Assembly (NCBI RefSeq): GCF_001281385.1
Contig: NZ_CP006911.1
Location: 930,001 to 994,000 of the forward strand
Reading direction: 5' to 3'
Source of the DNA: Candidatus Pseudothioglobus singularis PS1
GTDB taxonomy: Bacteria > Pseudomonadota > Gammaproteobacteria > PS1 > Pseudothioglobaceae
DNA: 64,000 nucleotides
The notes beneath the pieces are model-generated. The model was not told where the DNA came from and did not search any database. It worked only from the letters and a program-made list of their open reading frames with translations. Positions within the stretch are counted from its first letter, which is position 1. Every line of letters begins with the position of its first letter. This document shows positions 57,281 to 59,557 of the stretch, one piece after another. Made by a program: the position numbers and the translations under genes.

Positions 57281-57565
57281 TTACGCTAAGAAATATTCAT
57301 CTATTTGGGTCATAACTGTTGTGGATGAAACATCTGCACCTCCCGCCTCTCTAATTTCAACAATATCAGCCCGCTCACCAAATGTTTTTACAAATGACGG
57401 GTCCTTCGCTTCAGCCAATACAAAAACAGCCGTTTCATCAGGGTTTGCTCCTGCCCAAATCATCTTTGCACCTTGCTCATTCATTTGAGGCTCCAGGCCT
57501 TTTGCCATCTCTGACCAAGTTTTCCAGCCTTTAGAAATATTTATCGTTACCAACATACGTATCAT
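57281..57565 (-). CDS. Small soluble protein (94 aa), unknown function
   Basis: A 94-aa protein beginning MIRMLVTINISKGWKTWSEM, with a ferredoxin-like beta-alpha pattern (VTINIS ... AVFVLAEAKDPSFVKTFGERADIV). It may be a dimeric alpha-beta barrel relative, but I do not recognise the family with certainty. AAGGAGAAATC precedes the ATG, and TATACTACAAT upstream may be a -10 region. It is monocistronic, with its own strong terminator, which implies independent expression. Confidence 0.65.
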   Translation of the reverse strand: MIRMLVTINISKGWKTWSEMAKGLEPQMNEQGAKMIWAGANPDETAVFVLAEAKDPSFVKTFGERADIVEIREAGGADVSSTTVMTQIDEYFLA

Positions 57566-57639: not shown

Positions 57640-58920
57640 TTAAATTACCAATAATTCAGTCCAGCTTGTCGTGTATCTATTTGACTTGAAGTCAGCCCTT
57701 GGTAGCCATCTATTGTTACCTAGCTCACTGGCGTATTTAATTGATTCATTGAATCTTTTATTGACACTTCTTATCGTATTCGATTTTTGGCGTGCCATGG
57801 TCTGAATCTGACTATTTTGAGTTATTGAAAATAGATCTTGCTGCTGATAATTTTTAGTGAGGTTTCCTAGCACTAAACCGCCCTTATAAAAGGAATGTCC
57901 AGGTTTATAAATCAGTCTTAGTATTTGGGCTACTAAAGGAATAATTTGAGACTGGTCTTGAATAGCTGTTGTCATTCCTACTGTTTTTGATAGGTGAAAA
58001 CAAGGCTTATCTTTCTTATGAGGATTGGTATAGATGAAAACCGTAATAGTTGTCGTTGCTAACTGATGATTATTGAGCTTATTCACGGCCTTTCTGGTCA
58101 GGTTAGTCAAGGCTTGGTTTAGCTCATCAAAATCCTTCAAATCACAGCCAAAGGAGCGTGAAGAGACAATCTGTTGTCTGGCTGGAGGAATAGCCTCAAT
58201 AGGAATACACGAGCTACCATAAAGCTCCTTATAAATCTTTTTCCCATTGACTCCCAAAAGAGTTTCAATTACACCAACGTCAGATTGATAAAAGTCATGG
58301 CTAGTATGAATACCAATACGATTTAATTTTTTAGCACTTTGCCTGCCTATACCCCATAAATCTCCAACCTCAACTGACTTCAACAGCTTGCAATATCTTT
58401 CATAGGATAAATCATCGATATCAAAAACACCATCAAATCGTGGGTACTTCTTAGCAATACGATTAGCAAGCTTTGCCAAAACTTTAGTACTCCCAACACC
58501 AACACATACCGGGATTCCCGTCCAGCTCTTAACGCGCCTTCTTAGAGAGTGCATGTGATCCATCAAGTTAAGTGGAAGCCTCATGAGATCTATAAAGCTT
58601 TCATCGATAGAGTAAACCTCTTGAACAGGTGAGTACTCTCCAATAACCTTCATCACTCTGGAGGACATGTCTCCATATAAAGGATAGTTTGAAGACTTCA
58701 CCACTACGCCGTTTTGAGTAATTAAGTTTTTGAGTTTGAAGTAAGGCACCCCCATTTTGATACCTAATGCTTTTGCCTCATTAGAGCGTGCAATGATGCA
58801 GCCATCATTATTAGAGAGAACAACAATAGGCCTACCCTCTAACTTGGGTTCAAAGACTCTTTCACAGGAAGCATAAAAGTTATTACAATCAACCAGTGCA
58901 AACTTGGTTCGATTATTCAT
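57640..58920 (-). CDS. umuC: DNA polymerase V catalytic subunit
   Basis: A 426-aa Y-family polymerase that copies damaged DNA. The start [20 protein letters not shown] holds the first catalytic Asp and the steric-gate region. The second acidic pair is SIDESFIDL near residue 103. The helix-hairpin-helix part follows ([19 protein letters not shown] near 182), and the little-finger domain is complete. It overlaps umuD by 8 bases, so the two are coupled. The length matches E. coli UmuC (422 aa). Confidence 0.95.
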
Positions 58921-59494
58921 ATTGGTGTATTACAGATGTCACAACACCCCATATAATGAGTTCGTCGTCACCACTAATTTTAATATCTTCAAAGTCAGGA
59001 TTTTCAGCCTTAAGGGTTATGTTTCCCTTGTATTTATGTAGACGCTTCACAGTAAATTCACCGTCAACAACTGCGATTACTATTTTTCCACTTTTGGCCC
59101 CTAAAGATTTATCAACTATGAGGATATCGCCCTGCTGAATGCCGGCTCCTATCATCGAATCACCCTGAGCTTTAACAAAAAATGTAGCCTCTTTATGGTG
59201 AATAAGATGTGTATTTAGGTCGAGAGCATCTTCCAAGTGATCATCTGCTGGAGAGGGAAAACCTGCCTGAACGCGAGAAGTAAAAATTGGAATTGATAGC
59301 TCAGTAGGATTGTCCATAACTCCAAGAACTTCGACATCTGATTTAATTTGAGATTTGTATATTTCAATAACAGGATTAATAGAATCTACAAGACTAACAG
59401 GCACTCTAATGACTTTCGTTTCTTCTTTGAAACTACCTGAATTTTTTTTACGACCAGCGCCCTTTCGAGAGCCTCCATGAGTACTTTTATTCAT
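58913..59494 (-). CDS. umuD: UmuD with N-terminal DNA-binding-like extension
   Basis: A 193-aa S24-family autoprotease subunit of polymerase V. The cleavage site is Ala77-Gly78 ([10 protein letters not shown]), catalytic Ser113 is in QGDSMIGAG and Lys150 in EFTVKRLH; the spacings of 36 and 37 residues equal those of E. coli UmuD. The protein has 53 extra N-terminal residues: a basic [11 protein letters not shown] segment and [20 protein letters not shown], which looks like a ribbon-helix-helix half. UmuDAb of Acinetobacter also has an N-terminal extension and acts as a repressor. Cleavage would remove the extension. A perfect inverted repeat overlaps the promoter start. Confidence 0.9.
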
Positions 59495-59495
59495 T

Positions 59496-59557
59496 CAACT
59501 TGATTTATGTAACAATATTCAAGTTGGGATTATAAATTAACCTATATCGAAGGTCAA
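59496..59557 (-). promoter_or_regulatory. umuDC promoter with inverted-repeat operator candidate
   Basis: On the minus strand TTGACC (59557-59552) and TATAAT (59534-59529) are 17 bases apart, a near-ideal sigma-70 promoter. CAACTTGA and TCAAGTTG (59496-59503 and 59519-59526) form an exact inverted repeat with 15 bases between, covering the expected transcription start and the leader up to the umuD ATG. No E. coli-type LexA box (CTGT-N8-ACAG) is present. The repeat could bind UmuD itself or an unknown repressor, or fold in mRNA. Confidence 0.7.

Follow-up and report, generated by a model that had tools for sequence, protein, structure and literature searches.

In Candidatus Pseudothioglobus singularis PS1, a marine bacterium that oxidises sulfur, the operon for DNA polymerase V (Pol V) begins with an extended umuD gene, whose product is very probably a self-cleaving autorepressor of its own operon as well as a Pol V subunit. 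The operon lies within the 64,000-nucleotide stretch analysed here (the window: contig NZ_CP006911.1, 930,001 to 994,000; coordinates below count from its first letter). Self-repression had been proposed in an initial annotation of the window, and is now supported by homology of the extension to the N-terminal domain of the Acinetobacter repressor UmuDAb, by the joint occurrence of extension and operator beyond the genus, and by an association between residue 28 of the extension and the operator core. The parts themselves, their conservation, the lack of a LexA match and the uniqueness of the operator in the genome also speak for this prediction from sequence. UmuDAb itself is already known in Acinetobacter; repressors of the same kind are predicted here far beyond Moraxellaceae. 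The features on which the argument draws are as follows.

57640-58920, minus strand: umuC, Pol V catalytic subunit, same operon as umuD (PF00817 at 1.1e-36, PF11799, PF13438).
58913-59494, minus strand: umuD, extended, 193 codons, predicted autorepressor and Pol V subunit (open reading frame (ORF); Peptidase_S24; NF007621).
59045-59047, minus strand: catalytic Lys150 (invariant in a 60-row alignment; role by homology).
59156-59158, minus strand: catalytic Ser113 (invariant in the 60-row alignment; role by homology to S24 peptidases).
59261-59266, minus strand: predicted self-cleavage bond Ala77-Gly78 (invariant in the 60-row alignment).
59309-59494, minus strand: N-terminal extension, residues 1-62, with basic arm, TKVIRVP stretch and one helix (UmuDAb homology; AlphaFold2 model).
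59342-59398, minus strand: single predicted helix, residues 33-51 (AlphaFold2 model).
59399-59419, minus strand: T26-P32 (TKVIRVP), predicted operator-reading strand (covariation).
59411-59413, minus strand: V28 codon, the residue associated with operator core type (covariation).
59496-59526, no strand: 31-bp inverted repeat CAACTTGA-N15-TCAAGTTG, sole exact copy in the genome.
59500-59522, no strand: predicted UmuD operator TTGA-N5-GTTAC-N5-TCAA, core GTTAC at 59509-59513 (kept in 26/26 relatives).
59529-59557, minus strand: sigma-70-type promoter TTGACC-17-TATAAT (11/12).

The C-terminal part of the protein is a UmuD-type S24 domain (PF00717, Peptidase_S24, 1.9e-34). The NF007621 model for the autoproteolytic Pol V subunit gives it 165.9 bits, above the cut-off of 110, and the LexA model gives 93.0 bits, under the cut-off of 110.95. 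Its partner gene umuC lies downstream and overlaps umuD by 8 bases, and the UmuC protein receives 362.6 bits from NF002955, under that model's cut-off of 431. A77, G78, S113 and K150 do not vary across the 60-row alignment. E. coli UmuD is cleaved at 24/25 (PMC4807011; this and all papers below are cited from excerpts), so that, as the initial annotation had it, the PS1 protein carries 53 residues more before its cleavage site at A77-G78.

No Pfam or NCBIfam family matched the first 62 residues, in which the basic segment and the ribbon-helix-helix-like segment described at the outset are both present as written. Besides M1, a 12-row alignment (A1) is invariant at G7, G8, R10, G14, R15, E24, T26, R30, P32 and S34, and the N-terminus of A. 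baumannii UmuDAb, HGGARENAGRK...EPTKVIRVPES, begins like that of the window protein (the A. baumannii record, labelled pDETAB15 in the plasmid collection, is 3.66 Mb long and was taken as chromosomal). The alignment identifies the extension as a homologue of the UmuDAb N-terminal domain. In A. baylyi, changing E24 to K derepresses ddrR and umuDAb (PMC4807011); this residue never varies among the 12 aligned rows and reaches at least 90% conservation across the 60. The A. baylyi pair K40-R41 is not conserved, reading by eye as N40-P41 in the window protein.

An AlphaFold2 model built from the 60-row alignment (mean predicted local distance difference test score, pLDDT, 79.8; predicted template modelling score 0.58) shows a confident S24 domain, an extended run over residues 1-32, a lone helix at 33-51 and then a linker with pLDDT below 50, with block means of 76-87 over residues 21-50. 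The monomer model contains no helix-turn-helix (HTH) and no second helix in the extension. A Foldseek search of the PDB returned UmuD' first, followed by LexA and CI chains, and identified no fold for the N-terminal part. Ribbon-helix-helix repressors (the Arc/MetJ/CopG group) resemble the extension in having a strand-like stretch followed by a helix, with a residue of the stretch tied to operator type; they differ in that the extension has a single helix in the model and no ribbon-helix-helix Pfam match at E up to 10. The earlier description of the extension as ribbon-helix-helix-like therefore holds for strand-like stretch and first helix and fails for the second helix, and a complete ribbon-helix-helix was rejected.

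The promoter, first described as strong, scores 11/12. The exact 8-bp inverted repeat noticed over the start site is also there, beginning 2 bases past the -10 element and finishing 1 base short of the umuD ATG. Across the whole genome (one contig, 1,714,148 bases) the next best copies of CAACTTGA-N15-TCAAGTTG carry 2 mismatches. What relatives conserve is a unit inside the repeat that the initial annotation had missed: TTGA-N5-GTWAC-N5-TCAA, 23 bp long, is kept in 26/26 genus and family loci, and only 5/26 show the outer 8-bp repeat without mismatch. Conservation of the site in relatives thus applies to the core operator and not to the repeat as first drawn. The same annotation had suggested looking in the genome for lexA and for further copies of the repeat; no lexA was found, and no other exact copy either.

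In the window genome the umuD site is the only one with at most 1 mismatch to TTGAANNNTGTWACANNNTTCAA. Exactly one such site, each time at umuD, occurs in 22/29 genus members; one further member (G001) has its umuD site with 2 mismatches, and the six genus genomes without a umuD start have no site with at most 1 mismatch. Because each of these sites stands alone in its genome and always at umuD, the predicted regulon seems to consist of one operon. For the window genome, a larger regulon was considered and rejected: up to 3 mismatches there are 13 sites, against 19 for the reversed pattern. Among the 12 sites not at umuD, the 11 that were read (all except L055) precede no recognised damage gene. 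One of the sites falls within the ORF after recA (recX-like by eye) and not upstream of recA, where no operator site occurs within 3 mismatches.

A standard LexA controlling umuDC had been named as an observation that would speak against self-repression, and none was found. A PF00717 scan of the window genome returned two S24 proteins only, UmuD and a 149-aa ORF. The LexA winged-HTH family PF01726 had no match in 25/25 genus members scanned, the PS1 genome included (several or many of the genomes being incomplete), against matches in 10/15 other class members; no LexA winged-HTH match was found in the window UmuD itself. Exact E. coli-type LexA boxes (CTGT-N8-ACAG) are not enriched in the genome, with 7 against 16 for the reversed control, and the absence of such a box at umuDC, noted from the start, is upheld by a best score of 6/8 upstream of 62 extended umuD genes, that of the window included. 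We found no sign of a hidden LexA elsewhere in the genome in the S24 scan, the PF01726 scan or the box counts. The 149-aa S24-like ORF (G000:C1:1240534-1240809) follows what appears by eye to be the end of fpg/mutM, and its catalytic Lys position reads, also by eye, as Arg.

The joint occurrence of extension and operator was assessed in several sequence sets. The first (140/147 loci parsed, 7 lacking the motif) gave 62 representatives of extended umuD below 75% identity, from several phyla by the labels of metagenome-assembled genomes (MAGs) and from plasmids. Each locus was scored by its best site, maximum 12, within the 130 nt ahead of the N-terminal motif for extended forms or in about 200 nt for short forms, the longer windows favouring the short forms. 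The 62 extended genes scored 12 in 17 cases, 11 in 26, 10 in 9, 9 in 7 and 8 in 3, so that 43/62 reached 11-12, compared with 0.3% of 1240 shuffles reaching 11. In 50/62 the upstream site was strictly the best of the whole 2.9-5.3 kb locus, and UmuC was encoded within 1.6 kb downstream in 47/62.

Two later sets were scored with the pattern fixed beforehand. Among 25 viral representatives, 12 were extended and 10 of these could be scored, the other 2 having too little upstream sequence; 9/10 have the operator, or 7/8 when two that are more than 90% identical to earlier proteins are left out. The other set, from the family that holds Legionella (f42) plus one locus from elsewhere, comprised 75 genes (92/111 parsed, 19 failing the regular expression or short of upstream sequence, then mutual identity of 90% or more removed), of which 60/75 score 11 or more. 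Removing ten near-duplicates of the first set at 90% identity or above (7 of them at 98% or above, in effect the same loci) leaves 52/65, and a 75% identity limit leaves 32/41.

Short umuD genes behave differently. None of 17 from the class survey reaches 11, and 4/17 have an exact LexA box; the box is exact in 5/5 enterobacterial phage genes, 1/5 of which also reaches 11; and among 13 viral genes one reaches 12 and 2/13 have the box. Pooled, the operator occurs in 2/35 short genes and the exact E. coli LexA box in 11/35, versus 0/62 for the box among extended genes. In three of the short viral loci (L280, L294, L301) the tblastn match reaches into the extension, which could make them aberrant or disrupted extended forms; leaving these three out, 2/32 score 11 or more. 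Two Acinetobacter phages, vB_AbaSI_1 and vB_AbaM_ABMM1 (L206, L207), encode a short UmuD lacking the N-terminal domain behind a perfect UmuDAb-type operator, TTGAATATGTTACAAAATCAA, apparently leaving control of their Pol V to the host UmuDAb. A short UmuD on viral contig IMGVR_UViG_2511231094_000005 (L309) likewise has a perfect GTAC operator upstream and perhaps uses an extended UmuD of a host.

Operator cores fall into GTAC and GTNAC types, and across the 43 clear operators of the first set residue 28, the x of TK-x-IRVP, separates the two best (mutual information 0.68 bits, reached in 0/2000 shuffles; 0.38 for the next of the 12 columns printed). A or P stands at this position in 19/20 GTAC sites, and V, T or L in 21/23 GTNAC sites. 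This rule, set on the first set, was afterwards applied to the f42 set. In the 52 of the 65 new genes that score at least 11, A/P goes with GTAC in 24 cases and with GTNAC in 3, and V/T/L/I goes with GTNAC in 18 and with GTAC in 1 (Fisher 8e-9, kinship uncorrected); S/Q, which lie outside the rule, go with GTNAC in 6/6. At the 75% identity limit (41 left), A/P goes with GTAC in 19/19 and V/T/L/I with GTNAC in 6/7. The window, with V28 and a GTTAC core, agrees with the rule. In trees of the S24 domain only, the first set offers 5 supported independent pairs, 2-3 for the association and 0 against, and the f42 set (57/60 kept in the tree) offers 4, with 1.9 for and 0 against. Proteins with S28 have a GA-type core in 6/8 sites and GANTC in 4/8 (score at least 10); the f42 loci concerned (L349, L394, L400, L405, L419, L422) show cores GATTC, GAATC, GATAC and GAAAC, and Ser28 with GA-type cores is a possible third letter of the code.

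These data are best explained by the following mechanism. In the undamaged cell, a UmuD dimer joined through its S24 domains would set its two N-terminal domains on TTGA-N5-GTTAC-N5-TCAA, with the TKVIRVP stretch, V28 foremost, reading the GTTAC core and the basic arm and helix touching the flanks. UmuD bound there, over the umuDC start site, would exclude RNA polymerase. After damage, as S24 chemistry and UmuDAb suggest, the RecA filament would induce UmuD to cut itself at A77-G78; the cut would remove the DNA-binding domain, allowing umuDC to be transcribed, and would leave UmuD', the active partner of UmuC. Since a single cut would give both derepression and active UmuD', umuD would thus make up a one-gene switch responding to damage where LexA is lacking.

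Several observations weigh against this reading. The operator pattern was shaped while the first set was in view, so that a fair test of it comes from the later sets alone. Extended genes scoring under 11 number 19/62 in the first set and 13/65 in the new one, and therefore the operator has diverged or is absent in some of them. Besides those of the Acinetobacter phages, two short genes (L210 and L309) score 11-12. With both sets taken without duplicates and without S/Q, there are 6 independent pairs, 3.6 for the residue-28 association and 0 against (median p 0.125); joining S/Q to V/T/L/I after the fact gives 9 pairs, 5.9 for and 0 against (median p 0.031). Because the supported independent pairs are few, though none goes against it, the association is suggestive and not settled with respect to kinship. 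The AlphaFold2 model also lacks an HTH, unlike published UmuDAb models (PMC11332147), and strand pairing that forms only in the dimer would give such a monomer model. Finally, the passage on A. baylyi and the E. coli umuD mutant in PMC4807011 implies that the polymerase half of the function could be absent here.

That passage is also the ground for the alternative that UmuD represses itself and no longer serves the polymerase, acting in the role of dedicated regulator that has been put forward for A. baylyi UmuDAb. For 15/62 extended genes the 1.6 kb downstream yielded no UmuC, though 3 of these have less than 400 bases of downstream sequence. Here, against that, the two genes overlap by 8 bases, UmuC follows in the remaining 47/62, the protein scores high enough to pass as a Pol V subunit in the NF007621 model, and apart from the 149-aa ORF no further UmuD-like S24 protein in the genome exceeds the cut-off; we consider a dedicated regulator unlikely.

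Less likely still is that the palindrome serves some other, unlinked repressor as its operator and the extension binds, for example, RecA, the clamp or UmuC. Co-occurrence does not equal binding, and a few short genes (L206, L207, L309) have the site, but the Acinetobacter phage cases fit capture by host UmuDAb. An unlinked repressor would also have to accommodate the pairing of operator and extension across chromosomes, plasmids and viral contigs from dissimilar hosts, the association of residue 28 of the extension with core type, and the fact that the same kind of extension with the same kind of operator is a proven repressor in A. baumannii (PMC11332147). The inverted repeat could instead form an RNA hairpin in the 5' leader that controls translation or stability, as it lies between promoter and ATG and its 8-bp arms could pair in RNA. 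The arms, however, are exact in 5/26 relatives, whereas the GTWAC centre, which would be the loop, is kept in 26/26, and the A. baumannii site is found 44 bases ahead of the start, all of which makes a hairpin very improbable. Autorepression by the extended UmuD, combined with its polymerase role, remains our preferred reading.

The closest known system is UmuDAb, for which operator binding and repression are published in A. baumannii, with the operator TTGA(N4)GTWAC(N4)TCAA and a core that matters more than the arms (PMC11332147). UmuDAb shares with the window protein an S24 UmuD architecture, the homologous N-terminal domain including E24, and TTGA/TCAA arms with a GTWAC core over its own promoter. 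Both hosts are without LexA, and recA is apparently outside both regulons, being unaffected by loss of UmuDAb (PMC4807011). The systems differ in spacers, N5 in the window (26/26) and N4 in A. baumannii, one extra base per side; N5 spacers also occur in two Acinetobacter loci (L115, L169). UmuDAb has several target operons, compared with one site in the window genome, and upstream of the window umuD, by a reading of the neighbourhood only, lies a co-directional 454-aa ORF in place of a small divergent gene such as ddrR. A. baylyi ADP1 differs from the window operon, which has an intact umuC; a complete umuDAb-umuC operon is reported in at least five Acinetobacter species. Downstream of umuC in the window, a 94-aa ORF (57281-57565, minus strand) matches neither Pfam nor NCBIfam at E up to 1.

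Canonical LexA resembles the window UmuD in its self-cleaving S24 domain, Ala-Gly bond and predicted RecA-dependent derepression, and differs in that UmuD has no winged-HTH match, uses another operator and is predicted to double as a polymerase subunit. In short E. coli-type UmuD the Pol V subunit domain is the same, again with UmuC in the operon; the N-terminal domain is lacking, and 5/5 copies from enterobacterial phages carry an exact LexA box. HdiR, the non-canonical LexA of Bacteroidetes and Francisella FddR are likewise S24 repressors replacing LexA, described in the excerpts as phage-repressor-related, with none of them a UmuD (PMC8565304, PMC13148647). The part of a 2021 paper cited here gives only Streptococcaceae (HdiR) and Moraxellaceae (UmuDAb) as earlier cases of non-LexA S24 regulators of SOS genes (PMC8565304). 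Among the open-licence PubMed Central papers listed by the searches, we found no report of a UmuDAb-type repressor outside Acinetobacter/Moraxellaceae, and no description of the damage response of marine SUP05-type bacteria.

Extended UmuD is present at full length in 23/29 genus members (of the rest, 5 lack any match and 1 shows just a 17-residue fragment) and in 3/8 other family members. It is carried on plasmids of Legionella, Acinetobacter, Sulfuricella and E. coli, and at least 137 plasmid records among the best 5000 matches have a single match covering at least 80% of the query. The N-terminal alignment matches 44/369 Gammaproteobacteria, and in 29 of these the match covers the N-terminal domain of a UmuD. 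Named matches include Nitrosomonas, Cycloclasticus, Methylobacter, Legionella and Actinomarina, and matching MAGs are labelled Marinimicrobia, Chloroflexi and Thermoguttaceae, labels that may be wrong. In family f42, 110/140 genomes match; several (G801, G867, G890) hold two to five matches, and in some genomes the copies have unlike residues at position 28 and unlike core types, which may insulate them from one another. A phylum-wide sample added few new extended forms, among them L316, which joined the f42 set, and L317, which failed the motif parser.

With PF01726 used for the 29 genomes with extended UmuD and the TIGR00498 cut-off for all 369, lexA is found in 8/29 (5/20 by family code) and in 235/369 overall; the contrast of 8/29 with 227/340 (Fisher p ~6e-5) compares two different models and is uncorrected for kinship. 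The extended-UmuD switch seems to prefer cells without LexA, yet also lives alongside it. The N-terminal domain also seems to exist on its own: stand-alone ORFs of 95-96 aa of open frame match it in three places, and the one that was read (L096, genome G212; GGKREGSGRK...MRVPESRVEEI) has no S24 part. PHROG phrog_21736 (94 positions, function not assigned) matches all 12 A1 N-terminal domains, with a best E of 1.4e-25, which identifies this unnamed phage protein family as containing the domain.

In a tree of the S24 domain, short forms nest within extended groups at several places, and starred branches force at least 3 changes, in a tree that is poorly resolved (34/83 inner branches open; 60/62 extended, 23/24 short and 3/8 LexA rows kept). 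Because the N-terminal domains are homologous, repeated loss would be the simpler reading, in a sample that favoured extended forms. A broader proposal follows, to which we give about even odds: UmuDAb is one member of a wide, partly mobile family of damage-repressor UmuD proteins, whose N-terminal domain is a minimal DNA-binding fold outside Pfam (basic arm, strand, one helix). In this proposal a code at residue 28 sets the core (A/P for GTAC; V/T/L/I/Q for GTNAC; S often for GANTC), and short E. coli-type UmuD arose repeatedly by domain loss, its operon then coming under LexA or, in Acinetobacter phages, under host UmuDAb. What weighs against it is that the residue-28 association, once corrected for kinship and with duplicates and S/Q left out, falls short of significance.

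Genes predicted to switch themselves in this way turn up on plasmids, in viruses and in several groups of bacteria. Given the residue-28 rule, operator reading by an N-terminal domain without a Pfam or NCBIfam family becomes testable through single substitutions. If the autorepressor prediction is true, it would explain how umuDC is kept silent in hosts without LexA and during plasmid-borne moves between hosts, and marine SUP05-type bacteria would gain a concrete one-operon SOS switch.

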